A model generated the notes under the pieces. The model did not search any database and was not told the DNA's origin. It worked only from the letters and a program-made list of their open reading frames with translations. Below are positions 418 through 26,400 of a stretch of 64,000 nucleotides of DNA, one piece after another (within the stretch, counting starts at the first letter, position 1; each line of letters opens with the position of its first letter). The position numbers and the translations under genes are program-made. The DNA is from Antedon mediterranea (taxonomy: Eukaryota; Echinodermata; Crinoidea; Comatulida; Antedonidae), in NCBI RefSeq assembly GCF_964355755.1, contig NC_092676.1, positions 7,112,288 to 7,176,287 of the forward strand. The letters are read 5' to 3'.

Positions 418-2060
418 AAAGTTTCGAAGACAAAAACTAGATTCTTTAACACAATTCGAGACGATCCAAAACCAATATTCAAGGGGGCACCGGTGACACG
501 TGAAAAGCACAAGATAGAAATGAAGATCATTTGTGAAATAAAAGGACTTGGTGTGTCTGATGTCTATTTCAAACCAGCTGCAGCTTTGAAACCGAAGAAG
601 TACAAAGCTACTGGAGAGTTTCAGACTTATCTTAGAATGTATGAAGACAGCACCTTCAGCAAGCAGATCAGTGGAACTGCCGCCGTGGAACTTAAAGAGA
701 AGTTATACTTTGCTGCGCACGCAACTACTCCTGGGAAAGAGGTTGCCATAGAAAGTTGTAGAGCAATGGCTAAGCATGGAACATGTACAGAGAATGACAA
801 GAAGTACACTTTCATCAAAGACGGGTTTGTTTTTACATCTAAATGTTCATTCTAATTCCATAAAGTGTATTTTCTAGTAAAAAGGCGGCCTGATCTAAAG
901 CTTGATTTCCAGTAAGAGGCAACGCAACAAATCACAAGCGATGAATTATGATGTCGCACGGTCATTGGTCAACTCGTATGTGCCGTACCGTTTGCTTAAA
1001 GATATACTGTCCCCCTAAAAACGTTTTTTTTACAAATTTTTAATAAGCCTTTTTAATGTCGCATAATAGTGATTCACTTGATCAAAAACTGGATCAACAC
1101 AAAATTATTTACCTGAAAAAATGTAATTTAAAGCAAAACAATACAAATTGTCAGACAACGGTTTTTGGTTAAAGTTAAACGTTTCTTTTGTCTTTTTATA
1201 AGTGAAATAATATTTTTTTTTCTTTACAGAAGTGAATAACTTTATTAAAACTGCAAAATGGCCTATTTAAAGTCTGATTTTATTAATCGTCATTTTCCAT
1301 GTTAAAGGGGAAAATACATCTTTAAATATATTCAATCTCCGTTTTCATCAAGTTTCTTTATTATCCTCAGGTGTGCAGTCGATTCTACGGCGTCCATTAG
1401 TTCTGATTTCACTGGCATAGGCCATAACTTCCTCATCGACTCGTTTGGATTTCTCCAATATGGTTTGACCAATGAGGTATGTATATTATGCTACAGGCAA
1501 ATTAAAGTACTTCGATTATTAATAATTAGAGAGAGTTTGTACTGTAGCCCAGACAAATTGATGATATATATAGGGTTTATACATAGGCCTAAGACTAGGC
1601 CATGATTGCGACCAAACTCATACGGAGAAGTATATGTGACGTGTATGTACCAGGTGATCGTTTTAGAGCATGCGCAGATCCAAATTGTAATAAATCTTAA
1701 TCTTTACAAACCACGAAGAGGCGAGTTAGTACACTTATTTTATTTTTTGCCGATACACGCATACATTCTTGTGATAACTTTTTTTGAAAGGGGGTGTATG
1801 TACGTGTGATGGGTATATCAATAAATTGGTAGCGTCATTTGAGGTTAACAATACACGAATATAAGGCAGACATTTAGTTTTATTCTTGTTTCATTTTTTT
1901 TTTATAGATCTTGGTTAAATGTAAGATGGTAACGTGCGATCCTGGGGTTAACGACTCGCGTTGCTCTGAGCTTAAACAAGGAGGATGCGTTCCTAGAAGT
2001 CGAAGAAGTTTATCATTTGAAAAGGAAACCGATGCATTTATGACATTAACAATTGAATAA
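418..2060 (+). CDS. Zona pellucida (ZP) domain protein, 3' part (three exons; 5' end outside window or not found)
   Basis: Three exons join in frame: 418-824, 1371-1476, 1908-2060 (stop TAA 2058-2060). The first reads K-V-S-K-T-K, then a stretch with the ZP-like words RDDPKP and VTREKHKIEM, and later VELKEKLYFAA and VAIESC. The 825 GT donor joins GG to G at 1371, giving IKDGCAVDST, the conserved ZP-C 'DGC..D.T' junction. The second exon gives FLIDSFGFLQYGLTNE and the third ILVKCKMVTCDPG with paired cysteines, then the basic site RSRR, a likely furin-type consensus cleavage site as in other ZP proteins. The frame ends 18 residues after that site without a transmembrane segment, so I predict a secreted or cleaved extracellular matrix protein. 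Upstream exons (signal peptide, N-terminal domains) are not visible. A polyA signal AATAAA lies at 2072-2077. Family is well supported; exact role (egg coat, cuticle, other matrix) cannot be told. Confidence 0.82.
996..1325. repeat. MITE family B, complete copy in ZP gene intron
   Basis: The ends are inverted: TTAAAGATATACTGTCCCCC at the left and a degenerate GGGGAAAATACATCTTTAA at the right. The family consensus end appears to be TTAAAGATGTATTGTCCCCC, seen again at 11388, 27160, 35224, 48277 and 49465. There is no coding capacity. Confidence 0.6.
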
Positions 2061-2936: not shown

Positions 2937-5900
2937 ATGTGGAATTTTTTAAAGAAAAAAGGTATGTACAATTTTGTTATTGTATGTTTATATTAGTATT
3001 GTATAGGTTAGTCGACCTAACATTGAAACATAGCATTATCTGCAAAAATAATAATGCGATTGGCTTCCATACTTAAAGAAGAAATTTAAAATTACGGAAA
3101 AAATTGCTAAATGTTATGATGGCTATTCTATCAAAAAGATTTTTGTATAAACACAAATATTTGTATTTTTCAGAACAACAGACAGACGGTAGGAGGAGAA
3201 GAGAAGAAAATAGGGTTTGTTTTAGAATCAACTTAAAACTAAAAAATGATAGTTAAATGTAAACAATTTGTAATAAGATCGTTTCATTGATTTTGTTATG
3301 GTTTATGTTTTTTTGTATAAGTCTCTGTAATGGATTACTTGATATAAAAAACCTAATGCGTCAATTGTATAATTGTATGGGATTTTCCATGTTTTGTAGG
3401 AGAATTGTTCATGTGTATTTTTAACGCATTGATGTATGATTGATTTATGTTGTATTTATTGTTAGGGTGTACAAAGTCCTGCGGTAAGGTCGACACAGAA
3501 AAACCAACGTGAAATAAGAAAACAACAAAGAAAACTGGTAAGTAGTATTTTATGATGACTATTTTCCATTACTAGTAAATTCAGTCAGTTCCAACACAGT
3601 TCTAACGAAATCCGACATGAAATGTTGCTTTAAACAATGTTTATCAATTGTGTCACGTCAGTAGTTTGTTTATTTGAAACATGTAACAGAGTTTTTGTAA
3701 ACAAAACTATTTTGCAGAAAAGAGAGAAACAGAGAGCAGAAAAAAGAGAAAATAGAAAGGTTGGTTACGTTTTTATTACGTAGAACTCGGAATTTGATAA
3801 TAACGCTCCATGAAATGTGTTATGGTTTAGGCATAAGCCTATGTGTTGTTTTTTGTTTTGCAAATGAAGTATTTGTGTGTTGCCTAACAATGTCGAACAT
3901 CTTAATTATCAGGTACAGAGAGACCTTAAACGTGAAATAAGGAAGCTTGAAAGAGAAGAAAGAAAAATCGTAAGTAATTCACACAGCTCCGCACCAAAGC
4001 CAATAACCACCCTTCAAACCCCTTCCTCCTCAGCTCTAACGGAACTCAACATTAATACATTGCTTGTAGATTTAATGTATCATGTGTCTATAATCTGTGT
4101 CTATTTGAAAAAATATAATTTTGTGTGTAGGCTTTTTAAAAGAGAAAAATGTAAAACTAAAATATTTGTATTTTACAGGAAAAAGAAATGCGGAGATCGG
4201 ATCGAAGAAACTATACAAAGGTTTGTTTCGTTAATCAACTAACTCAAAATAAATAGCTACATTCTGCAATTTATTTTTGTTGTACAAAGTCAACCATCCG
4301 TTATCAGTTGAATTCTTGTGAATAAATTTTCCAATCGGAGTATATTTATATTTTAAATTTTCCATTTCTGATTTAAAATTAATATTTTGATGAGATCTAA
4401 CAGTCCCAAACTAGGTTAAAGGATGATTTTCCAGTTCAGTAATATTGCCCTGTGTTCCGAACATTTAATGATGCGTGTCTCGTCAATAGGTTCTTGACGT
4501 AAATCAATATTTTGTAGAGGGGTTTTCCATGTTTATTTTTGGACCATCGATTTACTAATTGTTATGGTTAGAAGTGCCTTTATAGTCGTATTGTTCTGTC
4601 ATACTGGTAAGCATTTAATAGATAAATAATGCGTACAGTTTGTCTAATAAGTAGAAGAAACTTTAAAAAATGGCGTTCTGCAAGAAAGCGTTTGATCTTT
4701 TTTTCTTTTATTTATAAAAACAATCTCGCCAGTCAATATAAATAAATAAAATAAGTGGCATAAGGATAACTATTTATAGAGATACAGAAAAACTAAAGCT
4801 ACAGCGATAATGGATAGAAGGAAATGTTGACGCCACGTATTATGAGCTGTATTATAGGCTATTGAGAAGGAATTATATCAGAATAGGAAAATCAGCGTCT
4901 TGTATGATCTCACACCACAGAGCTTATACTGTAGACGACCGACCTTGATTGTAGACGTCTGTCACCATTACCCCTATTCCAAAATGTTGTGAATATTTCA
5001 AAAGATATTAAACCCAATGTTAGAGTATGAGTAGACCTAATTGTGTCATATTATTACTGAAGTCTCTATTTGACAAAAAAAAATCAGATGGAACGGTTAC
5101 TGAGTTTTAGCGCGACCAGCTGATAATCAATGATCAATCAGTCTTGAATGAATTCTTTATAACATAAATAATTTAAAATATTTTAATTTCAGACAAGTGC
5201 AACTTTACAACAACATCTTGTAAATTTGCTGAAAGTAAAATCAATATGTAATGCAGTGAGAGCACAGGCAAAGGTGAGTTTTATTTTTCTCTGGAAATGA
5301 TAATTGATTATTGTTGTTATACAAATTAGATATAGTTGATGCAGAGTAAACATTTTCCAGAGACTATAACCGCCTATGCTGATTTTGGTTGAAATAGTTT
5401 AGATTTCAAAACTACTTTGCTCTGTACAGTAGGCCTAAGTATTATTATAGTTTTGCGAAAATTATCAACCGGGCGTTACCAAAGTATTGAACCGACTGCA
5501 AGAAAATACTGTAAATTCACTCATCGCCGTATCCCCACCTCTTCTCTACATTGCTCTTTTTACTAAACTATTATTTTACAGGAAAACGAAAAACGGAGAG
5601 CGACAAGAAGAGGGGATAGGCCTCCTACACAGGTTTGTTCTGTGGATTATTACTGTAACTGAAAACTTTAAAAATGTGATACATTTTTTCGATCCAGAGC
5701 ATTAATATTGTTTTTGTTTTGTTGTAAATATGACTTATTTGTTTTGTTGTTGCTTAATGTCAAACATCTTAATTATCAGGTACCGTGACTTGGGGTTTTC
5801 CATGTGTATTTTTGCAACCATTGATGATTCATTGTTGGTTTAGAAGTGCCTAGTCGTGAATCATTCTTTCATATGTATTCTTTGTCTAAAAGTAGAAACC

Positions 5901-7036
5901 TTTGTGTTCTGCTAGATAACTAATATCTCACCTTCTGACGTCAGTTATGAAAAACTCACTATTTTTTTCACGTAATTTTGAATACAATTACTATTAAATA
6001 ATCATTTCAAAACAAATTTGCATAAAATAATCTAACATGATAGTTTTGTAAAATTATAAACTGGGCGTTACCAAAGTTTGAACCGACTGTGAGGAAATTC
6101 CAAAAACAGTTAACTACACGCAGATGATAACATTATTATTATTATTATATGTCAATTAACTTTGGATTATATTTAAATTTCAGCCTACAGAATCACTTGT
6201 CACATTATTGAGAAACGCATCTGAGGTAATTTAAAAACATAATATCATCATCAAATTTCTACTCTAAATCCATCAAATCTAGTCTTTTAAATATCTTACC
6301 ATTTTTTATAAAGCCGAAACAGTATATAATACCGGCTATTGAACTTGCTGCTCCGGACTGGAATTATACAATAGTATGAAAACTAGACCTTCCATTTAGA
6401 TACAGTACACTTGGCATACAAAGTGTATTCATATAGTTGTGTTACTATATTCCCTTTCTGCTTTTAGGTAATGGGTGCAATGCATAAGAAGATGCCACCT
6501 GAACAGTTGGCCAACATCATACAGGAGTTTCAGACAGAGTTCGAAAGAATCACCGAGGCACAACAATTAGGTATGTTTAATTATAATCCTGATGCTATGG
6601 TTTTATTACAGCATCGTACAGGTTAAAGCATTCATTGCATGATCAATATTCGAACTGAAGTAAATTAAAGCGACCAATATGAATTGACACGACGGGCACG
6701 AGGACTAATGGAGCGGCTGATCCAGGATGTTAAATAAGAAGAGAGGAAAAGGGCCTAAACATGATAAATAATGAATTAAATAAAGTGTTCAATTAACTCT
6801 ATCAATGTCCTATTTTAGCTTTGTAATTTCAAAATCTGAAAATGTACATTGCTTTAGGGGTCACACAATTTACGTGAATTGGAATTTGTTAGACACTAAC
6901 ACTTTTTTTTAATTAATTAATCTCATGGATTTTCTTAACTTCAATTAATTGTATTAATTTCCACATAATTTTTTTTTAAAGTCATGGTTCATTCTTAGAA
7001 GAACTTCTAGAGTCTGGAGATAAGGAGGAATGGTAA
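2937..7036 (+). CDS. CHMP2B-like ESCRT-III paralogue, copy 1, C-terminally truncated with basic N-terminal micro-exons
   Basis: Predicted exons: 2937-2961, 3174-3214, 3466-3537, 3718-3759, 3913-3969, 4179-4220, 5193-5273, 5582-5632, 6184-6225, 6468-6570, 6999-7036; all phases match and give 197 aa (180 if the out-of-order exon 5582-5632 is skipped). It begins MWNFLKKK. Residues ~9-93 come from short Lys/Arg/Glu-rich exons (for example REIRKQQRKL, KREKQRAEKRENRK, REIRKLEREERKI). The core is recognisable against canonical CHMP2B exon by exon: ATLQQHLVNLLKVK (TILAKQLVNMRKAK), and VMGAMHKKMPPEQLANIIQ (AMGAMNKQISPQQIAQTMQ). The exon at 5193 is seven codons shorter than its canonical equivalent. 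The frame ends LLESGDKEEW-stop, so the C-terminal helix and MIT-interacting motif are absent. It could be a functional divergent subunit or a decaying duplicate; intact splice sites in all 11 exons favour function. The parental family polymerises on endosomal membranes and recruits Vps4. Confidence 0.66.
5441..6100 (+). repeat. Intragenic duplicated segments inside copy 1
   Basis: Intron text around GGGCGTTACCAAAGT and GAACCGACTG occurs at about 5470 and again at about 6063. The text CATCTTAATTATCAGGTAC at 3898-3916 (acceptor of exon 5) recurs near 5763-5782, where the following exon has decayed. These pairs explain the second ELEIQRA-type exon (5582-5632) lying downstream of the core exon 5193-5273. 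Confidence 0.55.
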
Positions 7037-7142
7037 TTCAAGTTTCGGAACTGCTGGTAGCAATCAGAAGAAATTTAATATTATTAAATTCGATCGTCAT
7101 GCTTTATCGTGCAGCTAATTATCATTTAATTAATTAATAAGT

Positions 7143-7390
7143 TAAAGGTGTTTTATATAAATTTTACTAAAAATGAGTATTTGAATTAAATATAATAAAT
7201 TAGGGGTGTTTTATATAATTCAGTAAAAATAAGCCTTTTAATTAATCATAAAAATTTAGGGGTGTTATATATTAAATCTAATAAATGTGGGATGTTCTAT
7301 ATAATTTCACTAAAAATGAATATTTTAATTAAATATAATGAGTTAGGTTTTTTATATAATTTCACAAACAGTGAGTATTTTAATAATATG
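7143..7390. repeat. AT-rich tandem repeat, about 60-bp unit, about four copies
   Basis: The unit contains a GGTGTTTTATATAAtTT word, then ACTAAAAATGA and TTTTAATTAAATATAATA. It repeats with drift from 7143 to about 7390 directly 3' of copy 1. Confidence 0.6.
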
Positions 7391-7649
7391 CCTTTTTTAA
7401 CAGTTTATTTAACCATGTATTTATTTATGGTATTTAGTTATGGTATTTATTTATTCACACAATTATAAAGAATACAAGTCAAGGCCTACAAGTAAATGGT
7501 GTGTGAGGAAGACACGTCACATGGCCAGATGGCTTTAGGCTTGGTCCTCAATAAATGATATATAATATTTTGTTGAAAAGAGTTTAGCAAAGTAAATAAA
7601 GTAAATATTAAAATTGATGCAGTCTCTATATAGATGTACATTTTTTTGT

Positions 7650-7870
7650 AAGGGTTTGTATTTCAATTTCAATTTAATTTATTTCCACAATATTATAACA
7701 TACATACAGGATAATAACAGCAAGGAAGTAATCATGTGGGGGGAGGATCATATAAGTCAGAAAGACTTTAAGTTTGACCCACCCAAGGATATAACATTAA
7801 ATACGAATACACGAAAAAGAAAAAAATATACACATATTAACTAATAATAAATATAAGGTTCTTTAATCTA
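7650..7870 (-). mobile_element. Possible 3' end of a non-LTR retroelement
   Basis: Read on the minus strand the block ends in repeated AAATTGAAATTGAAAT, similar to the simple-repeat tails of non-LTR elements seen elsewhere in the window (25266-25279). No reverse transcriptase sequence is left. Confidence 0.25.
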
Positions 7871-8206
7871 AATAATTTCCAATAAGAATTCGATTGTATA
7901 ATGTAGTTATAGCAACTAGTCAATACGATAAAAATAGACGTCCAGTAGCGATATTGATTAATACAGTTTTAACAAAAGGCATGCGTCTGATGGACGAGAA
8001 CTATAAGATGAATCATCAGTGCATTGTAGATCACATTCACACATTCTAAAAATAGTAATTACTATAAATACATTTATGTCGTAACACATAGCGTCACTAT
8101 TACGTCACAAACTCATTCAATTGTTATAATAAATAACAGTGTATGTCTAGCTTACATTCTATATCTCACAGTTTTTGCTGAACGTTTTCGGTCTAGATAA
8201 TTCAAA

Positions 8207-11121
8207 ATGAGTGGACGAAATAAAGGTTTGTAAAATCATTGCATTTATTGTAGGTTTCATCATAACTAGATTACCCCACTGTCACTATCATTTATAGAGA
8301 TATCTAACCAAGGTATAGGACACAATTCGCTTTAGTTTAAAAACGCTGGACACAGACATAACCATTAAGGCCAAAACAAAAAGTTCAGATAGAATAGTAA
8401 ATATATTTAATGGAAACATGTCTTGAAAAGATAAGATAAATCATATTTAATACATTTTTAAATACTTAAATTTGTTGAATTAAAAATACGAATTAGGTAT
8501 AATACTGATGAACTTCTAAAACACATAGTCGCAATTGAACCAAGCTTATTTATTCATTCCACATCACATAAGCTTATGCCATGTCTGATGAATATAATAT
8601 CAGCAACAAAAATAAATAGTTATATGAGTCTTAATTTAAATTTTCGGATATTCTGACAGAAATGCGAAAAAATGGCAAAGCACTAAACAAAACTCATAGA
8701 GAAATGGAACATGAACGCGAAAAACTTGAAAAAGAAGAACACAATTTAGTAAGTCAGTGTCAAGTTATTTCATCATCCTCCTTAAAACAACATAGGCCTA
8801 AAGGATTGCTTTCTTTTAAAATGTGTAAATTTATACTGTTTTTATTTTAAGGAATTGGCAATACAAAGAGCAGCAAAAAAAGGAGACAAACAGGTTTGTT
8901 TTGTTATCTGCATTAAACGTAATGATTTTTATTTACATTTATATATTTTTAAGTCCAGTATTGTTGCTTAAACTACTTAATTATAGGATGCAAGATTTCT
9001 CAATATGTACTTACTTCTATAATCGATTTTAAAATCTGTAGAATAGATGTTTTGGATTTCCCATGTGTTTATTTTTAGAACCACGTCGATGATGGCACGT
9101 TATATTTTTTTACTTACTTACATTTTGATCATTCATCCGTACTGCAACAAATAAACTTCTTTTAACTTGTTAAAAGCAATGACCTCATAAACAGTGACAA
9201 AGTATTATATGAATAATAACTCTAAGTGTTCCCTCGCCATTCAACTATTTTGTAAAGAAACAAAAGTCTTTTCATATTACGTGTTTAGTAACTGTAATTC
9301 TACCCTAACAATGCATAGACTAGCCTGCCGACTGATATCGTGAATGAATATTTGTAATTTCAGACATGTACAATTTTAGCAAAACAACTTGTAAATCTAA
9401 GAAAAACAAAAACAAGATCTTATGGAGCATCAGCAAAGGTATCAGCGGTGAAAACACAGGCTAAGGTGTGTTTCTTTTCTTGAGTTGCTGTTTTCTCATG
9501 GCATGATGATTAGTTATTTTACATTACCGCACTATTAGGATTTTGTTATTCGATTTGACTTTTAGAGTGAACTAGGAAACAAGGGGAAGTATAGTATAGT
9601 AACACGTAACAAACAAACATATACTATAGTACCGAGTAAAACTAGCATGTCTACGATTATCTAACTTTGCGCCTTTGTTTTACATTTCAGACAATGCAAT
9701 CTACAAAGACACTGGCCACAGCAATGGGAAGCAAAACTAAGGTACAGTATTACATTATACATTCATCATATTTGTTTATAGTAATAAGGTGTGTAATGTT
9801 TTCTAAAAACTGGAAACGCAAACTAAGTTATCAATGCAAACAAGACAATGTTGTTCAATTGCTTTGATACAAATAAAGGATATAAACACAACTCAATGGT
9901 CATTTTCCATTTTCATCTAACCTTATAAATTCTGGAAATTATAACAAAATCTGATTTAATATTAATGTTTGCCATAATTTAAGGGGAAATCTCACCTGTT
10001 GTTGGTAACTACAACGTTAACTTTGGAGTGGAGCTGTGGCTTGGTGGTTATGATGCTTGGCTACCAATCTAAGGGTCCTGGGTTCAAGTCCTGTCATATG
10101 TCAGGGTTTTTTTCTCATGACAATTTACAACTCCACTCCCAAAGACTTAATAATAAGTCTTTGTCTATGTAGAGCATCTTGTGTATATGTTTGTCTTATA
10201 TGTTCTAGTGCAGTATATGGAGAGCCATCTCGATAGTGCTTTGCACTCATGGCAATCCTCAGGGTGCTGCACCGCTGTGTTGTCATGTATGTTTGCCTGA
10301 AAATTAAATAAAATAAAATAAAATAAAATAAAATAAAATAAACTGAAGCCTGTCTTGCTAACAAGATTTACCAAGATAATGAACAAATATCCATTATAAG
10401 TAGGAGTAGGCAATAATAGACTTAAATAAATTAAATAAATCACAAAATATTGTAACATTTAAAACACACTCTCTCAATTAGTAAAGTGTATTAAGGAGTT
10501 GGTCATGATTATTTGTTTTGTTTTAAGGGAATGGTGGCCATGAATAAGCAAATGTCAACTGAAAAGGTAGACCAGATAACGCAGAAATATGGAAGCGAAT
10601 CTGCCAAGTCGGATAGGAAACAAGAATCAAGTATGTTTAATTGTATTTTACCACTATTACTATGGGTATGGTTTGAATACATTCATTTGAAAGGAAATTT
10701 TTCATTAAAAAAAAATTGAAATAGTAGAAGTGGAAGTCAAACTGTAAAGCATGAATCAGGGAGTAATCCTGATGTGAGGCATCCAGTTACTTTTATCCAA
10801 CTGTTATGATCGATGATAATAACAGAAATGATTCATATAATAGGTGCAGGGCATTTTTTATATTTAGGCCAATTGCCAAAGATAAAGATAAGCGAATTCA
10901 TTCACTATATTTCTTAAAGGTGCCAATCCTTTTCACAAGACAAATTAGCCATAACTCAGGTGTATAGCAACTTTACTATAGACAGTAAATATTTTAAATA
11001 ATTGTATTTACCTAATGTTGTTTTTTAAGTGGATGATACTTTAGAAGATCTTCTTACCGAGTCTGGAGACGAAGAAGAGGAAACGAGAGCAATCGTAAGC
11101 AAAGCATTAAAAGACCTTTGA
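8207..11121 (+). CDS. CHMP2B-like ESCRT-III paralogue, copy 2, C-terminally truncated
   Basis: Seven exons join in frame: 8207-8225, 8660-8748, 8852-8893, 9364-9465, 9691-9741, 10528-10630, 11030-11121 (498 nt, 165 aa). Exon structure and phases match the first seven exons of canonical CHMP2B. Starts MSGRNK; residues 7-36 keep the helix-1 pattern EMRKNGKALNKTHREMEHE; 37-50 ELAIQRAAKKGDKQ; 51-84 are almost identical to the canonical gene (TCTILAKQLVNLRKTK, SYGASAKVSAVKTQAK). Residues 102-135 have drifted from the canonical NFEKES...MTEEL helix. The last exon begins MDDTLEDLLTESGDEEEETR, then reads AIVSKALKDL-stop, so the frame ends about 47 residues early and has no MIT-interacting motif. This is the copy closest to CHMP2B. 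Upstream is TTACGTCAC, a CRE-like word, at about 8100. A SINE sits in the intron before exon 6. Role is inferred: an ESCRT-III subunit that could co-polymerise but not be released by Vps4 in the usual way. Confidence 0.78.
10026..10342 (+). mobile_element. tRNA-derived SINE in intron of copy 2
   Basis: The head carries pol III promoter boxes: A box TGGCTTGGTGG (10037-10047) and B box GGTTCAAGTCC (10081-10091). A non-tRNA body follows and the element ends in a (AAATA)n tail at 10302-10342. Part of the same body is present in reverse at 41106-41194, showing dispersal. Confidence 0.82.
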
Positions 11122-12064
11122 GCAGCATTGTAGTACTACTGTAGCAATCGTACAAACAAACATTAATTTATCGTGGATTTTTATTTAGTTATGTTTTGTT
11201 TTAACATTAGGTCTACTGCTTTTGTTAAAATTACTCTTTTATTTTTGTTTTTATATAAGTAAAATAATAATTTTGTTGGATTTTTTCTACAGAAGTGAAT
11301 AACTTTATTGAAACTGCAAAAATCGTTTATCAAAAGTCTGATTATTAATCTTCATTTTTCATGTATTTGGGGGACAATACATCTTTAACGATAAAGTTAT
11401 AGTTTAAAAACTAAATTCTGTCTTTAATAAAACAACAAGAGATCGAGAACATAACAAAAATAGGTCGAGTATAAAGATAAATTTACGTATAAAAACTCAG
11501 CAATATTACTTATACTTATATTAATATAAAAGTTAAATGATATAAAGACTCAATCGAATTTTCTTTATTGTTTTGTTGGGGAACAATTCATGGCTATTTG
11601 TTGCTGGGGAATTAATAAATGTAATGAATATCATGTACAATAGGCATTATGGTGATCTAACCGTGTGACATGCAGTATTCGTATTACGCTCGAGAAATAC
11701 TGTTCCTAAGGTCCTTAGGCTTTTTCAATCCAAAATTGAATTATCATCATGATGCAAGACTCGGCAATAGTTTTGCCTCGGAATCGTTTAGAATAATATG
11801 TATAGGCCTATCTTTTGGATTTTCCATACCAGATCTATTTTTATCGATGATACGGTACAATATTTGTTTACATTTACATATCAAAACATAAAATTAATGT
11901 ATGTTTAGACGTTCTAAAAATAGCACACCAAAAACTACACACATTTACATATTATTGATTTATTTCTTCACATACTATATAAGTAAGTACGGTATGTCAC
12001 AACCTCACTCAGTGTTTGGTGAAAGTTGGATATACGAGGTATTCCTTGGTCTAGACAATTCACC
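11122..12064. other. Intergenic DNA between copies 2 and 3
   Basis: Contains a partial family B MITE with right end GGGGGACAATACATCTTTAA at about 11369-11388, then AT-rich DNA and the TATA promoter of copy 3. No gene seen. Confidence 0.5.
11976..11983 (+). promoter_or_regulatory. TATA box of CHMP2B-like copy 3
   Basis: TATATAAG lies 89 bp before the ATG at 12065, matching the placement and flanks of the copy 1 promoter. Confidence 0.55.
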
Positions 12065-15000
12065 ATGTGGAAATTTCTAAAAAAATTTAGACGAAAAAAG
12101 GGTATGTACATTTTTATTTATTGTATGTTTTTTTGTGGTAAGTTACAACCGTTATTTTATAGACCTGGCAGTTAAACACAGTATTTTGCTGATATTTTTA
12201 GAGATTTTATGAAGAAACATGATAATGACAACAGTAACTGCAGACCCAGTACTTAAACACTAATAGAATTATTTTCTAATACGTATAAAGAAAGAAATTA
12301 AAATATAGAACTAGTAGCAATTCATTCACCGTCATAAATGTAAAGTTTTTTCGAATATTGTCTTCATTGGCAAGTATGATAGAATAGAGATATAATTAAA
12401 ATACACAGGACTAACAGTATCTAACAACTTGTGTGTTGCTATAGATATTCATTTATCTAAATAGTTTTATATTTGAAAGAGACAAATTTAACACAAAAAA
12501 AAACATACCGGTATTTTTCAGGAAAAGAAAAAACTGTGAGAAGAAAAAAAGGAGATGATCAGGTTTGTTTCGTTGATTCAGTTCAAAATTCAAAACTTAA
12601 TAATACCCTTGTATAAATGTTATACAATTAATTATATAATCCGTTTATTTGTGATGTGTGTATGACTTATTTATTTTGGTATGATTATTGATTAACGGCC
12701 TATAATTATCATAATGATATGATGTGTTATTTAGGCAATTCTTTTAGGTTCTTGTGAATCAATTGTGCAATCTACGAATATTTTGGAATTTCCATTATGA
12801 TTATTTTAATAATAGATAATACATAAAATCGTTTAAATTATCTAACGATGGCCTTAAGGGTCTTTCACACCTGTTCCGTCTCCACTCGGCTATGCACCAA
12901 TCGATATGCGCTTAGCCGCGTGAAAACGAAACATTGACGTTCGATTGAATTTTCCGGCGCCGGACCGAAACCGTGCCGGAACAGGTGTGAAAGAGCCTTT
13001 AAGTGTATGATATAATGATGCAGGACAAATAATGTAAGACTTTTAATGGGTTTTGTATTTAAATAAATTTTACAAGCTGTTATACTTTTACTGGGATTTC
13101 CATGTGTAATTTTTTGGCGGATTTCCCACATTTAGTTTAACCACCCATTGATCTTATATTGTTCTGCATTGTTTACTTTTATAGTCTAAAGGTGTACAGA
13201 ATTCTGCGACAAGTGCTTTGGCGACACAAAGAAAATTTAAACGCGGAAAAAGAAAAGAACAACACACCGTAAGTAGCATTGTCCTGATAACTATTTTCTA
13301 TAAATGAAAATTCTTTCAGCAGTTTCCCTTCCCAACTGAGTTTCGAACCTAATAAGAAAAAGTTTTTGCTTTTAAAATTGATTTGTTTATCATGTGTATT
13401 AATATTTTAATACACATTGGTATTTTGTAGGAAAAGCAAAGAGCAGAAATAGATAAAAAGGCTTGTTTTGTTGATTTTTACTGTTTTAACTTAAATTAAT
13501 AACATTTATCAATTTTATATCTACTGTATCAATTGTTTGTTGTTAACGATGTCAATTATCAGTATGATATGATGATGATAAGGACCACATTATAGTTCTG
13601 GCGAATCAATTATGCAATAGAGAACATTTATATTTTGGATTTTACATTACTAATTAATAACAATTTGCTTTCCTTTGGTTTCTCTTAAATGACATTTCAA
13701 GACAACTTAATGATGCATAAGAGATGATGCAAGACTTTTTGGGGTTTTTTTTTCAATTTATTTTTATTGGGATTTTCCATCATGTATATTTTGAACCCAT
13801 TAATGATACAATAATTGGTTGACATTTTCTTTATTATCCATTATCTACGTTAGTTATCCGATTCTACGATGAACTCAATAGAGAGAGGCCTTGAACGTGA
13901 CAGAAGAGAACTTAAAAGAGACGAACAAAAAATCGTAAGTTGTATGCCTAAGACTAAAACGGAATGTCATTGTTTTTTTTTTTAAATACGTACAAAAATA
14001 ATATTTTGCTTTACAACTTGATTTGTAACATAAATGTATATGTATATTTTTAAAAGACAGATTTAACACATTTATGTGAAAAAAACTACTTGTGTTTTTC
14101 AGGAAAATGATATAAAGAAAGCTGAAAAGCGAGGGGATAAACAGGTTTGTTCCTTTGATTATTTACCGAATAAATTTACAACTTGATAATACATTTTATA
14201 AATTATTTTAATAGCTCGCCAGTCAATAATTGCAAATGGAAGTTGTGACGTAGTCCGTAGCGTTGGTAATTCAGTTATTGAGGCTTATTTACATACAAAC
14301 ATATAGAAATACATACAATATTTGATGCAAAGATAACTCTGACAAAAAAAAAATTGATGTGCCCATTTATGGACATGATTATGTTATATCACCACCATAT
14401 TTAGGCACATCACAGTTTTTGTTGTTGTCTAGTTTGATAGTGTTGAGAACCTTACATCACGGTACAAAACTAAATGTATTTTAAGTGAACAACAAATATT
14501 GGTATTGAGTTGTACAGTATATTCCTATTTTTCCTGTTTATTTGTATTTTTTGTGAATTACAATGCTAAATTTAATAGATGAAATTATTCAATCTAATGA
14601 AGCATAGTACGTGTTTTAGGCCTACTGCAGTTATCTTAGTAGTCCTCTTCCAGAAGAAATAGATGGAACTAACATTAGTTAGATTGGCCCTTTTTACACC
14701 GACATGTCGTGTTCGGATTCCTTTTCGCATCTGATTTAGTGACCCTAGTATTATCCTCGGGTACTCAATTCCGGATCAAACACCTTTGCCTCCATTTCAT
14801 AATTACGTATGGTACTTCTCTTTAGATTAAATGAGCCTTTTCAATTTCAGACATGCAAATCTTTACAAAAACATCAACAAGTTTTGAGAACAGCAAACGC
14901 GAACTCGCATAAAACATCAGCAAATGTGTCAGCAGTAAGAACGCAAGCTAAGGTGAGTTGTTTTCTCTGGCAATGATGATCGATTATTTTAGGCCTACTA

Positions 15001-15900
15001 TTTCCTCTCACATGTAAAATTATTATGGCGCCTGTTGTTGAACGTACAATTCAGAATGATATTGTGGATACTATTATAGAATGCCCGTTTCTTGAAAATT
15101 ATTATAGGCCTATTCCCTCCAGAGTAAACCATTGGCTTTGATTGCAAAACATTGCTAAATATTTTGATTGCGGCATTTAATGCTGAGACGTATTTTAAAT
15201 TTCAGACAATGCAATCTACAAAGACAGTTGTCACAGCAATGGAAAACACTACTAAGGTATTTTAATTTTTATCATCCATTAATATTATTAGCAGGTATAA
15301 TTATTCATTCGTGTGTTTTTTTTATAAACGACAATTAGCTCCCGAGGAGAATTAAAATGGTTGAAAATTAATTGTCAGTATTGAATTGTCCAAAATTAAA
15401 TAATTATTATCGTTTCTAGGCAATAAAAGCAATGAATAAACAGATGCCGTGTAAGCAGATAGCCAATCAAATGCATGCGTTTGAGAGAGAAAGCAACGCA
15501 ATGACCGAGGCACAAGAATTAAGTATGTGTATTATATAATTATATTTTCAACTGGTGCTGTGGTGGTGTTATTACAGCACATGTTAAAGCATTACATGAT
15601 TGGTCAATTCACCACCTGAAGTCTACCATTTAGCCATAAGTTTGGCTTGCAGAAAACCGTTACAACCCATGATTTTACTTAAGTCAAGATAGTAAAAAGT
15701 GCCTAAGTGAAAAGATAGTATCTTTTTAGCTTAAGCACTTTTTACTATCTCGACTTAACTCATGGATAACCATCCCCATAATATCCTATAATTTTTGCCA
15801 TATTTCGAATTATTCATGATTTCTGCCTCACTTAATTAATTAATTGTATGTTTCTCCTTTTTTTTAAGTGGATCTTCTAGAATCTGGAGATGTCGAGTAA
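12065..15900 (+). CDS. CHMP2B-like ESCRT-III paralogue, copy 3, C-terminally truncated with basic N-terminal micro-exons
   Basis: Predicted exons: 12065-12101, 12522-12562, 13185-13268, 13431-13460, 13884-13934, 14103-14144, 14851-14952, 15206-15256, 15420-15522, 15869-15900; total 573 nt, 190 aa. Starts MWKFLKKFRRKK. Residues ~13-95 are short basic exons (GKEKTVRRKKGDDQ, QRKFKRGKRKEQHT, LERDRRELKRDEQKI, ENDIKKAEKRGDKQ), paired one for one with copy 1. The core follows: TCKSLQKHQQVLRTAN (canonical TCTILAKQLVNMRKAK), TMQSTKTVVTAMENTTK and AIKAMNKQMPCKQIANQMH with MTEAQEL. The final exon reads MDLLESGDVE-stop, so the C-terminal helix and MIT-interacting motif are missing. The donor after 13460 is GC (AAG|GCTTGT), and the acceptor of the 13884 exon is a little uncertain. 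Copies 1 and 3 form a sub-family separate from copy 2. Function is inferred only: a membrane-binding, Vps4-uncoupled ESCRT-III-like protein. Confidence 0.68.
12857..12998. repeat. 142-bp MITE, PIF/Harbinger-like
   Basis: Terminal inverted repeats AGGGTCTTTCACACCTGTTC and its complement at the right end differ at one of the first 20 bases. TTA flanks both sides (12854-12856 and 12999-13001), a 3-bp target duplication typical of PIF/Harbinger. Confidence 0.65.
14340..14455. repeat. MITE family A, partial copy (intron of copy 3)
   Basis: Contains GTGCCCATTTATGGACATGA and the right-end TAGTTTGATAGTGTTGAGA. See the entry at 42360 for the family. Confidence 0.6.
15667..15775. repeat. Foldback hairpin element
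   Basis: CCATGATTTTACTTAAGTC... at the left is repeated inverted as ...CGACTTAACTCATGG at the right, with GATAGTAAAAAGTGC inside both arms. A fragment of it recurs at about 25594-25640. Confidence 0.65.
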
Positions 15901-16889: not shown

Positions 16890-19800
16890 TTAAATCCTCA
16901 AATGTTCTGGAACATTTGCTTCTGGCTCCCAGGTAGGTTTTTTGAAGCCAACCCACTTTACTTGGTACATAAATTGTCCTTTCTTCTTTTTCTTTTTTAA
17001 TATTTTTTCAAATGCATAAAATCCTGAAAAAAAAAAAGAAGCAATTTTTACAAGCATGCAAATAAGTTAAACAAACTGTGTTTCCAAAACAATATTTGAT
17101 TATTATCAGGGTTGTAATATTATGTCTCTGCATCTTACCTTCTTTCAACTCAGTTTTCTTACTGGTATGCCCAATCTCCGAACAAATGTTTGCTAAATCT
17201 GTATTTTTTTCTGGGAAAAAAAACAGTTAAGCATTAATTGTTAAAACATTTTGGGGTTCCCTGCTCTCTAATTTGAATGTATGTGCTGTTGCTATTTGAA
17301 AAATTTCTTTGAATTTAATTATGCACAAGGACACTTTATTGAGTAAAAACTTAGTCTAGTGTATATTGTTATGTTAAGGTCAATTAACTGTCAAATAATT
17401 TTTTTAATTTTATTTTTTTTAAAGCACTATAACACTGTATTGCTCATAGGTCATTCCATATCCTGTCACGTCTTTAACACAATTGTATTCATTGTATGTG
17501 TTGCTGTTTAAAATTTAAGTAGGTTTGCTAAATGTGTTACTCACCAAAATCAATTAACACTTCGTGAGGCCTAATGGTAACTTCAATTTCAGCTGTGGAA
17601 GAATTATGTTCATTGTGAAGAATATCACAAAGAAAAGTAAATACTGTATAAACATTTTGATTCACACTAAATACACATTTTCAATATATCAACAAATATA
17701 ACATCAAATATCAAGTAAATGATGTTTAACTTACCATCAGTAATTACTGTTTCATTTTCTGTAGCTGTGGATGAATAAATTGCAATAAATAATATTTTGT
17801 TCAATGACTATATCATATAATAGACTCGAACACCTTTTTACAACAAATTGTTTGGTTGCATTAAATATCAAGTAAATGATGTTTAACTTACCATCAGCAA
17901 TAACTGTTTCATTTTCTGTTGCTGTGGATGAATAAATTGCAATAAATTATATTGTATTCAATATGCAGATGTAATTTATAGTGAAATACAGTAGTACTGT
18001 TTACCTATATTATTTAAGAAAATAGTCTTGTGCCTTAATATACTACAGTATATATTAACCATGCACAAAATGTTAAATTAGATACTGACTATAGAATTTC
18101 AAATTCAAAGATATTGTAGATCTCTTAGATTTAAATATCATCCAAAAAACTACTTTCTGTCATGACTGCAGATGATTAATTGACATACACTAGAATTGCA
18201 AAATTAATTTTAACAAAACCAAAATCTGAAAGGCCTCAAAATGTTTATTAATTACTGTAAATGTTCTTAAGCGATTAATGTTTGCTTTTTGATTTTGTGT
18301 CCGTCGGCACATCATCGCGTCCGTCGGCAAACAAAGGTGCCGGGGACAAAAATAAACTATTATTCTGACAATAATTGAACTGTAAACATAATTCTTTTGA
18401 GTGTTTGTTTATTTACATATCATATCATCGATCCCTTCAGATCAACTATTTTTTATTTTCATTACATCTAACGAAACACGTAAAAAATGTGTAGCACGTA
18501 CGTACAGCCGTATGCTGTAGATTTTTTACTCAAAAGTCTTTGACCTTACCCTATTCAACCTTGTTTTTGCAGTTGAGCCTCTCATGACCTGGGATTTGTA
18601 TGTCTTCCTACGCTAAGATTATATAGTTCCACATGCCATGTGCTTTTTTGTCTAAGATATATTTATTATAAGTGCCAAAAACCCGTTTTTTTTTCTCGAT
18701 ATGAGGCCTTTATTATTCAAAATTTTTTAAGAAAAAGCACACATACCATAAAAAATATCCATGTATTTCATTTTTGGAACAGAATATTCCGTGAGGATCA
18801 ACTACAAAACCACCATTTTGTGATATGATGTCATCGTAAGCCAATCAAAGCTGAGCTTTCTCGCGATTGGCATTGCTCACGGTTGAATATTTTGGATTCT
18901 AGCTGATTTGATTGGTGGATGCGAATCACCCGCAGCGGAATGTTTTCTCTCGCGCGTGTACCATGAATCTCTCTGATCGTTACTACACAAAGTTAGAGCA
19001 ATGAATTTTCCCGAATTCCGTTAAGTAAACAACTTTATATATTTTATAAGCATTTAATTACATGTTTTATTGATATTTCCAATGGTGATATATAAAATAA
19101 ATTACTAAAAAACGTAATTATATGTAATTATTTTAACCAAAAATGGCGTAGTTAATAGAATTGTCGACTGAGGCCGCAAATTGTTTTACTTCTTTCGTGG
19201 CTAAAAACGATCATTTTCGGCGATGTTTTAGACCCTATATTTCGAAAACTACAAGTCAGATTTTCCTAATTCTTTCTTTATTGTAATATGAATGCAACAT
19301 ACTAACAGATAATGTTGGTTTGGTTTTAATTTTGCATCGTTATCCCATATAAGACAATATGACTATGTTATCCTAAAACATATATTTATCAGGTGTATGT
19401 ACAGATAATGACACCAATTTTGTCGGCAAATTGGCAATCCCGCCCCCCCCCCCAACTTCAAAATCCTGGATACGCCACTGAGTTAGGTGGCATGCTGATT
19501 AATGAGGGTAAACTGTGGTATGAAATAGTTTGATAATTCGAAAGTTGGATATCATTGATGCATGCGACTGTGTGTCAGTCTAAATTTTCTGAAACACATT
19601 TATTTTAGTTAAAACTTGCCTTCAAATTTAAGGTGATTGCTCTTTTCAATAATGCTTTCAAGTTCTTGGTAAGTGTACCTTCCTATTGGCTTAAAGCTAA
19701 TAGGATCGAGGCCACAAACTCGCCACTTTCCGTTCATCACCTCCTTGTAAGGCACCCTATCTTTCCCCGATGCTTGTTCTGAAAAAACATCCCAGAGTTT

Positions 19801-20209
19801 AACAATTTAGAGTGAAGTGTAAATTTATAATAATGAGTGTACATATAAATTATTAATACAGTAATAGTTAGATAAAAACTCTAGATGATTGGTATAGACA
19901 TAGGATACTTTATTTGTCAAAAATGTAATATTTTTGAAAAGATAAGATGTTAAAATACATTTAAAATTCTTGTAAGAAAATATTTAAAATACATTAAATT
20001 AAATATGAAAATTGCAATATTCAAAATACTGTGGATATATCGCATTAATAATATAAAATAATTTAAAATGCGTTTGACTTTGATAACATTTTTGGTTCAA
20101 AACATCCTTTATTAAAAAAAAATTGTGAACTTACTGAATTTGTTATTTAACAGCTCCTGCACTTCTCGTCTGAGCTTTTTCTTCTTATTTACTTGTTTTG
20201 CATTTGGAC
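16890..20209 (-). CDS. GTF2I-like repeat plus chromodomain protein, 3' part (5' end not found)
   Basis: Seven minus-strand exons, in order of transcription: 20209-20135, 19778-19620, 17921-17892, 17764-17735, 17592-17545, 17210-17139, 17023-16890. Every internal junction is phase 1, and they join to one open frame. The first two give LRREVQELLNNKF, VPYKEVMNGKWRV, GLDPISFKPIGRYTYQELE and IIEKSNHLKFE, which fits the GTF2I repeat pattern (LR.eV..L...kf, vPY, GLp..i.F, L..Il....i.F). Two near-identical 10-residue exons (ATENETVIAD, ATENETVITD) and a linker follow. The last exons encode YAFEKILKKKKKKGQFMYQV, KWVGFKKPTWEPEANVPEHL, then RI-stop: a chromodomain with the aromatic Y...W...W pattern and the TWEP motif. 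The donor after 19620 is GC (AAG|GCAAGT, a strong GC-type site). A chromodomain usually reads methylated histone tails, so a nuclear role is inferred. It could also be a domesticated or old transposon-derived gene, since many retroelement integrases end in a chromodomain. The N-terminus is missing. Confidence 0.68.
17704..17962 (-). repeat. Tandem duplication of a 30-bp exon with its flanks
   Basis: About 95 bp (AATATCAAGTAAATGATGTT to ATGAATAAATTGCAATAAAT) is present at about 17704-17800 and again at about 17864-17958. Each copy contains the complete micro-exon with both splice sites, and each exon is 30 nt and phase 1-1, so both can be used without breaking frame. Confidence 0.8.
18000..19619. 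other. Long intron of the chromodomain gene
   Basis: About 1.7 kb without an exon I can support. A degraded relative of the duplicated micro-exon may lie near 18160-18180. A poly-C run occurs at 19442-19453 beside a degraded repeat ending ATACGCCACTG. Confidence 0.4.
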
Positions 20210-20265
20210 CTGTATGGATTAAAATCAGATTGTAAGCATAAATATAAATCATGTTTTTACAGTAT

Positions 20266-21638
20266 TGTAATATAATGTTGTGTTGAGGTACTAATGAAGA
20301 CTCTTACTCGCTTGACTGTCGTAACACATATATTGTTTATTCAGTATAATATTTCAGTACAATAATGATTCGGTACAATATACTATTAGGATAAGGATAC
20401 AGAGGATCAGTGATGCTGTCGGTGAGGTGTGAAGTGTGTAGGTCTGCTTCTGGAGAAGTGGCTGTAAGGTGTAGATGTTCTTCTGAAGAAGTGGCTGTAA
20501 GGTGTGTGCTCCGTGAAGTGGCTGTAAGGTGTGTCTGGGCTCTTCTGAAACTTGAGGGTTTATTGCTTTGGTTCATTTACATATGTCACTACGTAATCTT
20601 AGAGGTTACTGATTGGTCCTAAGTTGGTCCATGGGTGTTTAAGTGGGAGTGATTGATCTTATCTGGGGAGGTTACAATGATGAATTGGCCCTGTCGAATC
20701 TCTGCTTAAAAACTGTCAATATCTAATTGTTTTACGATGGGAACAGTCACGAAATTAAGCTAAGTGTTTTCTTTAGGGATTCTATTATAAACTAAATGGT
20801 CATTAAAACATATGGACAAACTCTCCTCTGGACTTTCTGGGTCAAGTTTGTGAACTTATTTGAATTCCGATACAAAGGTCAATTTCTTAAATATAAAAGT
20901 ATATCGTTATATTACATCCCTCTGTTTCCCTTTTTTTTTCTTCTAATCTATTTTAATATAATGTAATATAATGTTGCGTTGTTGAAGTACTAATGAAGAC
21001 TCTCACTCGCTTGACTGTCGTAACACATATATTGTTTATTCAGTATAATACTTCAGTACAATAATGATTCGGTACAATATACTACAGTATTAGGATAAGG
21101 ATACAGAGGATCAGTGATGCTGTCGGTGAGGTGTGAAGTGTGTAGGTGTGCTTCTGGAGAAGTGGCTGTGAGGTGTAGATGTTCTTCTGAAGAAAAGGCT
21201 GTGAGGTGTAGATGTTCCGTGAAGTGGCTGTAAGGTGTGTGCTCCATGAAGTGGCTGTAAGGTGTGTCTGGGCTCTTCTGAAACTTGAGGGTATATTGGC
21301 TTCGGTTCATTTGCATATGTCACTACGTAATCTGTGAGGGTAACGATTGGTCCTAAGCTGATCCAGGGGTGTTTAAGTGGGAGTGATTGATCTTATCTGG
21401 GGAGGTTACAATGATGAATTGGCCCTGTCGAATTTCTGCTAAATTCTGTCAATATCTAATTGTTTTACGATGGGAACAGTCACAAAGTTATTCTTTAGGC
21501 ATTCGATTATAAACTAAATGGTCATTAAAACATCTGGACAAACTCTCCTCTGGACTTTCTGGGTCAAGTTTGTGAACCTATTTGAATTCTGATACAAAGG
21601 TCAATTTCTTAAATATAAAAGTATATCGTTATATTACA
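20266..21638 (-). mobile_element. Collapsed LTR retrotransposon: two LTRs with only about 45 bp between them
   Basis: Left LTR 20266-20916 and right LTR 20962-21638 are direct repeats with high identity. Each starts TGTAATATAA and ends TTATATTACA, a perfect 10-bp inverted terminus with the TG...CA rule. The 4-bp target GTAT flanks the whole element (20262-20265 and 21639-21642). A polypyrimidine run directly follows the left LTR (20917-20944), which on the minus strand is a polypurine tract next to the 3' LTR, so the element lies in minus orientation. All coding sequence and the primer-binding site are gone. Inside each LTR is a small tandem array of GAAGTGGCTGTAAGGTGTG-type units that makes short meaningless frames. 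Confidence 0.85.
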
Positions 21639-23444: not shown

Positions 23445-26400
23445 ATGAATGTATTTAGGAAACCAAATGAAAAAGGTTTGTTGAACGTTCTATTATTAAA
23501 ACTACTATTTATGATTTTCTATAGGCTACTAAAACTATTACAATAGTCTAATAGAGTTAGACTAGGCTATACTATTGTATTAATAAATAGTGCTAGGCCG
23601 CCTAGTGTAGCTAGGCTGAGTGTAGCAGCAGCAGTGGTTGACCGGCTAGGCTAGTCTGGCCCTAGCTAGCGGGTATCCTAGCTAGGCCTAGTCTAGCTAG
23701 GCCGAGATTAGCTAGACCCAGAGTAGCCGGTCAACCACAGCTGCTGCTGCTGCTACACTCAGCACAGCTGAGCAGCTACGTTTTTCCAGCAGCCAGTAGA
23801 GGCCGTGAGCCTAGACTTGACTGATACAGACAGTACTGTAGTTTAGTAGGCCCCTTTTGTCTTTCTTTCTCTAACTCGTAGCTGTAGTTATTCTTGCTAG
23901 GTCGCTTAATTAAATCATAAACTTAATTTATCCATCCCCTGGTCCTGCGTGTGCTGACTAAACTATAAAAGTATGATAATAATTAAATTATGCCTGGCCT
24001 ACCAGCCACAAGATGTTTTTTAATCATACTGTCAAATTATAGAAACAGTGCTCATATTCGGAACATGATCTTATAATCGCGTCGAGCATAGCTCATCGGC
24101 GAAGTTTCCATATTTTTAGTTGTATGAAAAATTCTTTGGCAGGATTCGAACCAGAATGTATCTGGTGGTTGAAAATCTGTCATAATACCAATATGGTCGC
24201 AGGTTTGAATCCCGCCAAAGACATTTTTTCATACTAAAAATATGGAACTTTCGCCGATGAGCTATGCTCGACGCGATTATAAGATAAGATTCTATAATTT
24301 AACAATATGATTTATATATAAATTACACAGTGCTATGCAACACAATTGATTTATATACAAGATGTTTTACTTTTAGTCTCATCATTGCCTCATCCTGCAT
24401 GTTAATGATTGGTGGTTCTCTTTTTACTCCCTATATATAGGCTAGCCTAATCATTTATCTACATACTAAATTAAGCCCTTGTCCAGTCCTAATAAATGTC
24501 AGTATTTATTAAACAGTATTTCTTAATACTTCAATTCAACAGAAATTATGCGAAAAAATGACAAAGCACTACGAAAAACACAAAGGGACCTGGAACGTGA
24601 CCGAGGAAAACTTGAAAGAGAAGAAAAAAAATTAGTAAGTACTCCATTATCATGATTGCTATTTGAAATTCATTCACACACATTCTCCGATGTCCCTCCT
24701 TCTTCCTTAAAACATAAACAATCTCTTGCTTTTACAAATTTTGTAAATTAATTAAAAAAACTTTTTTTTTGATTAGGAACTGGAAATACAAAGAGCAGCA
24801 AAAAGAGGAGACAAACAGGTTTGTTCCTTCTTTAGTTATCAAGATAAAATAAATGAAAACCTTGTTATAATTGCACCAAATTCACTATCAAACTTTATGA
24901 GACAAAAATATCACTACCATATCTGGGCATATCACTACCATATTTGGGCACATCATACTTTTTTTGTCAAACTAGTTTGATAGTGTAGAGACAGAGCTTA
25001 AAGCAATATATTTCGTCCCTGCCGCTATACGATTATATAATGAATGATAATATCATTCATTATATAATCGTATAATCGTATTTTATGCGCTAGTTTTATT
25101 TTTTGTAGTATTTTAAATCGACTTTTTAGGATTTTATATGTATATTTTGTATGGCTTTTTTTATTGTATTTTATATTTTATGTACTGTATCCATTTTATA
25201 TTTGTATGTACTGTACTTTTGAAAAGGCCAACAGAGTTTCCCCATGGGGATAATAAAGTTTTAATTGAATTGAATTGAATATTTATTTTAACTTTATCAT
25301 TGATTCTCTAAATTTCAGACATGTACAATTTTAGCAAAACAACTTGTAAATATGAGGAAAGCAAAAACAAGATCTTACGGAGCATCAGCAAAGGTATCAG
25401 CGGTAAAAACACAGGCTAAGGTGAGTTTTTCTTCTGCTAAATTTGATTTCCCCTTGACAATATTTGTTTAAATTGTTTAGTTAGAATATTTTATTATGAC
25501 AACTTAACTTTGTTTTACATTTCAGACAATGCAATCTACAAAGACACTTGCCACAGCAATGGGAAACACAACTAAGGTAAAGAATTAATTTTTGAGATAG
25601 TAAAAAGTGCTTAAAGTGAAAAAGACTAGGATAAGAAGATAAATATTTGCTTAGGTTATTTTAGAAAAAAAAAAGTTAAGATAATTGTCTTTGATAAATC
25701 CAGCCACACGTGTTCTCTTGAAATCTTTTGTGGTGATAGAAACAGAAGTTAATATTTCAGATAATGGAGCCAATAAGTACAGATTTATGAATTTTATTAT
25801 TATTTTATTTATTTATACTGGCCTCTTCAGTAAAAGCCTGACCTCCCAGATGGCCCAGTTATGATCAGTGGCTGTGATGGATAGAAGTATATATAGTTAA
25901 GTTATTATAGAGAAGTTAATTATCATGATTACTTTTGTTTTATTTTAGGCAATGGGTGCAATGAATAAACAAATATCACCTCAACAGATAGCCCAGACAA
26001 TGCAGAACTTTGAGAAAGAGTCAACCAAGATGGCTATGACAGAGGAATTAAGTATGTACAATTGTACTGGTGTTGCCAGCCGTGGTCTTATTTGCATACG
26101 TAACAAGTAACAAACTCTTGTCTTGTTCGGGTTACTATGTTGCGTTGCGGATTGAAAAAAAATAAATATCAGTAAAATTATCTTTTTTCACAATGATCAC
26201 CTATAATTCAAGTTTATTTATTTATTCTTTGGGTGATCTCTTCAGTCAAAAACTATTCTCCCAGAGGGCTGTATGATGAGTAAGTTGTGTGAACTAGGAT
26301 GTTGAAAGATGTACTAGGCTGATGAGCCAGATATGTACACTGGACCTTATACAAGAAGACTCTTTCTACCACCAGAACCATGTAAAGAGTGATGCAGGCC

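Follow-up and report, generated by a model that had tools for sequence, protein, structure and literature searches.

A tandem family of tail-less CHMP2B paralogues beside an intact CHMP2B gene in the crinoid Antedon mediterranea

Results

Four CHMP2B-like genes lie at one locus

The window, by which we mean the whole 64,000-nucleotide stretch of Antedon mediterranea DNA that was analysed, carries three CHMP2B-like genes (A, B and C) in tandem on the forward strand, followed 7.5 kb past C by a canonical and intact CHMP2B gene, P. Their exon chains are as follows.

2937-7036, forward strand: A, tail-less CHMP2B paralogue, 11 exons, 197 aa
8207-11121, forward strand: B, tail-less CHMP2B paralogue, 7 exons (8207-8225, 8660-8748, 8852-8893, 9364-9465, 9691-9741, 10528-10630, 11030-11121), 165 aa
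12065-15900, forward strand: C, tail-less CHMP2B paralogue, 10 exons, 200 aa
23445-27488, forward strand: P, canonical intact CHMP2B, 8 coding exons (23445-23475, 24543-24634, 24777-24818, 25319-25420, 25526-25576, 25949-26051, 26692-26798, 27378-27488), 212 aa

In the rebuilt gene models, homologous exons of A, B, C and P have identical phases, and this bears out the first-pass annotation of positions 2937-15900, which had read the region as three spliced, tail-less CHMP2B-like genes in tandem. It had also described them as adjoining canonical CHMP2B; the intact parent does exist, but P falls outside that region and is separated from C by other sequence, which includes minus-strand ORFs, one of them chromodomain-like.

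16890-17066, minus strand: chromodomain-like ORF (QVKWVGFKKPTWEPEANVPEHL), between C and P

Near this ORF, a further minus-strand ORF (19609-19806) has a weak likeness, below cutoff, to a GTF2I-like repeat, and 20255-20916 and 20951-21638 form a 700-bp tandem duplication of 88% identity. The locus is flanked, immediately 5′ of A, by exons of a ZP-C (zona-pellucida) domain gene (418-2060, forward strand; 418-855 scores 25.3 bits against Pfam Zona_pellucida) and, 3′ of P, by a DOP1/Dopey gene that begins at 33733-33870 and continues onward on the forward strand (Pfam Dopey_N, 39.8 bits). A dispersed repeat is common to an intron of the ZP gene (1164-1330), the B-C intergenic sequence (11220-11393) and an intron of P (27114-27155).

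Each tail-less copy begins with a 5′ leader, tctagayaattca..ATG (2917-2939 in A, 8187-8209 in B and 12045-12067 in C), which was not seen in P; the body exons of B are nearest to those of P, whereas its leader resembles those of A and C. An upstream box, TATATAAG, is common to A and C.

With each of the four genes as query, genome searches found no more CHMP2B copies elsewhere and returned only distant other CHMP genes, with the limit that weak matches can be missed. That the copies are intron-bearing and confined to one locus agrees with the origin by tandem duplication that had been proposed for them. In a tree that includes the four genes the branch of P is very short (0.016) and those of C (0.35), B (0.36) and A (0.61) are long; three rootings lie within 0.6 log-likelihood units of each other (AU p 0.24-0.71) and fit one or two losses of the tail alike. 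The tree, like the tail search described below, made use of a human CHMP2B sequence.

The C-terminal tail is missing from A, B and C

The C-terminal MIT-interacting motif (MIM) of ESCRT-III proteins recruits Vps4, and is typical of most, though not all, members of the ESCRT-III/Snf7 family. In P, exon 7 spans the autoinhibitory helix alpha5 and the motif lies on the tail exon, exon 8 (27378-27488), the protein ending in AELEAKLAKLLQVNDD. The motif is absent from A, B and C: A and C stop before alpha5, and B stops midway through it.

The three endings given in the first-pass annotation (LLESGDKEEW, SKALKDL and LLESGDVE) are all present, although that of A requires a shifted acceptor. When the acceptor just 5′ of 6999 is used, the last exon of A is 6999-7036 and the protein ends in EELLESGDKEEW; this acceptor, which yields LLESGDKEEW, lies 17 nt downstream of the site that aligns with P exon 7. 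Use of the aligned site gives the ending LVMVHS instead, and A is tail-less under both. B ends in EEETRAIVSKALKDL, with exon 7 retained up to TRAIVSKALKDL and a stop inside the exon after SKALKDL; as SKALKDL aligns to NRVLDEI, about half of alpha5 is present in B. C ends in MDLLESGDVE, after deletions within exon 7. The earlier statement that the stops precede both helix and motif therefore stands for A and C, and for the motif in all three, but has to be corrected for the helix of B.

11030-11175, forward strand: truncated exon 7 of B and downstream sequence, which still aligns in part with the remainder of exon 7 of P, with in-frame stops

Splicing to an undetected tail exon, a possibility that the annotation itself had raised, is ruled out: sensitive tblastn of the window and 20 kb upstream with the P and human tails found a tail exon in P only and none near A, B or C.

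The alpha1-alpha4 core is retained in B and C and damaged in A

All four genes score above the curated cutoff of Pfam Snf7 (27.3 bits), P with 145.3 bits, B with 97.2, C with 67.2 and A, marginally, with 27.8. The best PDB match of P is CHMP2A (1.2e-24). B aligns to residues 8-144 of 7zcg_B, a 147-residue CHMP2A polymer chain, and C to residues 12-137, that is, alpha1 to alpha4 of CHMP2A. In the CHMP2A-CHMP3 polymer 7zcg, then, almost all of the CHMP2A chain is matched by B and by C, so that the putative polymerising part has been kept and the part that serves release has been lost.

The claim that the core exons were kept holds for B and C and fails for A, in which exon 4 is shorter by 7 codons, a replacement stands in the position of exon 5 and an additional exon-3-like exon is present. 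With its core damaged in this way, A may have ceased to work as a normal ESCRT-III subunit.

5582-5632, forward strand: exon-3-like exon inserted in A
6184-6225, forward strand: exon-5 replacement in A (PTESLVTLLRNASE), homology to exon 5 uncertain

A and C have a basic N-terminus built from repeated exons

A and C carry a very basic N-terminal extension, encoded by duplicated exons, which is lacking in B and had gone unmentioned in the first-pass annotation.

3174-3214, 3466-3537 and 3718-3759, forward strand: extra exons of A, like CHMP2B exons 2 and 3
3913-3969 and 4179-4220, forward strand: regular exon 2/3 pair of A, 3′ of the extra exons
12522-12562, 13185-13268, 13431-13460, 13854-13934 and 14103-14144, forward strand: repeated exons of C, matching those of A

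The extra exons derive from exons 2 and 3, as seen from DNA self-similarity within A (3097-3269/4107-4272 and 3692-3921/5558-5788) and within C (12436-12618/14006-14203 and 12500-12624/13409-13519), and from their type-specific donors, which are gtaagt for the exon-2 type and gtttgt for the exon-3 type, with one variant gttggt. The fourth exon of C (13431-13460) has a GC donor (gcttgt), and the frame is preserved if this exon is skipped. A has a pI of 10.5 and a net charge of +20, and C a pI of 10.2 and a net charge of +22, compared with a net charge of +2 for P. The two proteins start with MWNFLKK and MWKFLKK respectively, a hydrophobic start (MWxFLKK) that appears suited to membrane insertion.

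Frames and splice sites are preserved while the proteins evolve fast

Every exon chain of A, B and C is open, and all differences in exon length between A and C are multiples of three. Because the gene models had been chosen for openness, we examined donor positions +3 to +6, which had not been used in exon choice: these are 92% identical among homologous exons, compared with 32% at positions +15 to +40, which is about chance for this AT-rich sequence. We also simulated neutral evolution of each coding sequence at its observed synonymous distance. With d at 0.17-0.34, a simulated copy on average acquired about 3-7 stops and had 3-9 of its splice sites broken; none of 3000 simulated copies stayed wholly intact for A, and none of 3000 for C, while for B the intact fraction was 0.0007 without indels and 0 with indels. 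The simulation and the donor conservation together speak against the copies being neutral pseudogenes. The real copies show no stops, frameshifts or broken splice sites, their only blemishes being the GC donor in C and the shifted acceptor in A. These results support the view that A, B and C have been maintained as coding genes against neutral decay.

Constraint on the amino acids is weak, with dN/dS values of 0.46-0.61 that are weakly below neutral. For A-C, dN/dS is 0.61 (bootstrap 0.38-0.94; dS about 0.68), marginally lower than under neutral simulation, where the mean lies at 0.70-0.90 and p, which varies with kappa, is about 0.03-0.28. For P-B it is 0.46, which we do not count as support because a value near this is expected even when a constrained parent is paired with a neutral copy. 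When changes were polarised, the B branch received N 28 : S 10. The replacements cluster in two exons, 2 and 6, with N 23 : S 5, whereas exons 3-5 and 7 are conserved, with N 5 : S 5. Intact frames and splice sites thus go together with a fast-evolving protein.

A high CpG observed/expected ratio in invertebrates usually marks a gene without germline gene-body methylation. The ratio is 0.53 in P, 0.55 in B, 0.80 in A and 0.89 in C; if this genome, like those of many invertebrates, methylates the bodies of germline-expressed genes, then expression of B would follow that of P, and that of A and C would be restricted or absent.

Discussion

Several kinds of truncated ESCRT-III protein are on record: disease mutants, laboratory tools and mammalian retrocopies. 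CHMP2B-intron5, a human splice mutation of FTD-3, loses 36 residues. Certain primates and mice carry retroCHMP3, a CHMP3 retrocopy that has no introns. Like CHMP2B-intron5, the three copies are CHMP2B proteins without the C-terminal Vps4-binding motif, but A and C have lost more (the whole of alpha5), and each of the three is a gene of its own next to an intact parent. Like retroCHMP3, they are paralogues in the genome of an ESCRT-III protein of the CHMP2/3 type, minus the C-terminal autoinhibitory and MIM region; unlike it, they are three tandem, intron-bearing copies of CHMP2B with 7-11 exons, two of which have extra N-terminal exons. They would have arisen independently of either system. 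Compared with CHMP2B orthologues (Vps2-type, Pfam Snf7), exon order and phases are the same and B and C keep the core of helices alpha1 to alpha4, whereas the MIM is gone, alpha5 is absent or halved, evolution is much faster and the N-termini of A and C are more basic. A literature search found no description of a CHMP2B tandem array.

Helix alpha5 folds back on the ESCRT-III core to cause autoinhibition, and truncation of CHMPs leads to enlarged endosomes and blocked budding (PMC7618577). CHMP2B-intron5, without its Vps4-binding motif, acts dominantly (PMC11871287), and ESCRT-III proteins with C-terminal deletions that remove the MIM block HIV-1 budding (PMC10748027). Set beside these findings, our results lead us to favour, tentatively and at somewhat less than even chances, the explanation that CHMP2B was duplicated in tandem together with its introns, and that the resulting A, B and C have been kept as coding genes and act as tail-less modulators or poisons of the ESCRT-III filament. 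Their transcription and polymerisation, their effect on Vps4 and their biological role are what we infer from the genes. B and C, with helices alpha1 to alpha4, could join or cap ESCRT-III polymers of CHMP2B, CHMP3 and CHMP4; folding into the closed state would be impaired fully in C and partly in B, and Vps4 would be unable to pull either out through a CHMP2-type MIM. Both might thereby tune ESCRT-III or poison it locally, in the manner of retroCHMP3 and of human CHMP2B truncated at its C-terminus. The first-pass annotation had proposed always-open modulators, perhaps for defence; we keep this as a conjecture, and B still has half of alpha5. The basic N-terminal extension and MWxFLKK start of A and C may in addition allow stronger binding to membranes, or to RNA.

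The copies might instead be expressed and fast-evolving proteins, no longer part of the ESCRT-III polymer, that act via basic N-terminal helices, in nucleic-acid binding or as a charged structural helix, the tail having been lost as unneeded. We regard this as possible but doubtful: the very basic character of A and C relative to P, their additional basic exons, the marginal Snf7 match of A and the long branches of all three copies relative to that of P would fit, but B is without a basic extension and its core is still a strong match, and the core of C matches CHMP2A across alpha1 to alpha4. It is unlikely, in our view, that A, B and C are dying or were silenced recently, as duplicates that lost constraint lately, retain their frames by recency and are now drifting. 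Such a history would account for the weakly constrained dN/dS, for the shifted last acceptor and disrupted core of A, for the weak GC donor of C, and for CpG ratios in C and A that are high compared with P; yet at the synonymous distance that separates A from C both frames and nearly all splice sites are intact, no simulated neutral copy of A or C stayed so, the donors are conserved and the introns are not, and the CpG ratio of B is low like that of the parent.

That the copies are antiviral decoys like retroCHMP3, tail-less subunits which block ESCRT-dependent budding and have been retained and diversified by conflict with viruses, seems to us very unlikely. The truncation is of the same kind as in dominant-negative ESCRT-III (PMC10748027) and in retroCHMP3, and the faster replacement in exons 2 and 6 on the B branch is in keeping with such conflict, but no dN/dS above 1 is supported and relaxed constraint explains the rate heterogeneity equally well. 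The fuller proposal, of a standing family of dominant ESCRT-III modulators made from CHMP2B by loss of the tail, in which A and C would have gained a new membrane-binding N-terminus from repeated basic first-helix exons, for antiviral defence or for a special membrane task, we consider improbable as a whole.

If our preferred reading, of tail-less filament modulators or poisons kept as genes, is true, then a spliced, tail-less tandem family beside an intact parent would represent independent evolution of truncated ESCRT-III in another animal. One could then test whether regulators of ESCRT-III, or inhibitors of virus budding, have been made repeatedly by such truncation in animals, and how cells cope with subunits that Vps4 is unable to recycle via the usual motif.

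Exon 5 of P (25526-25576), B (9691-9741) and C (15206-15256) is unusually conserved as DNA, including its acceptor, with a dS to P of about 0.09, hinting at gene conversion or at a splicing enhancer.
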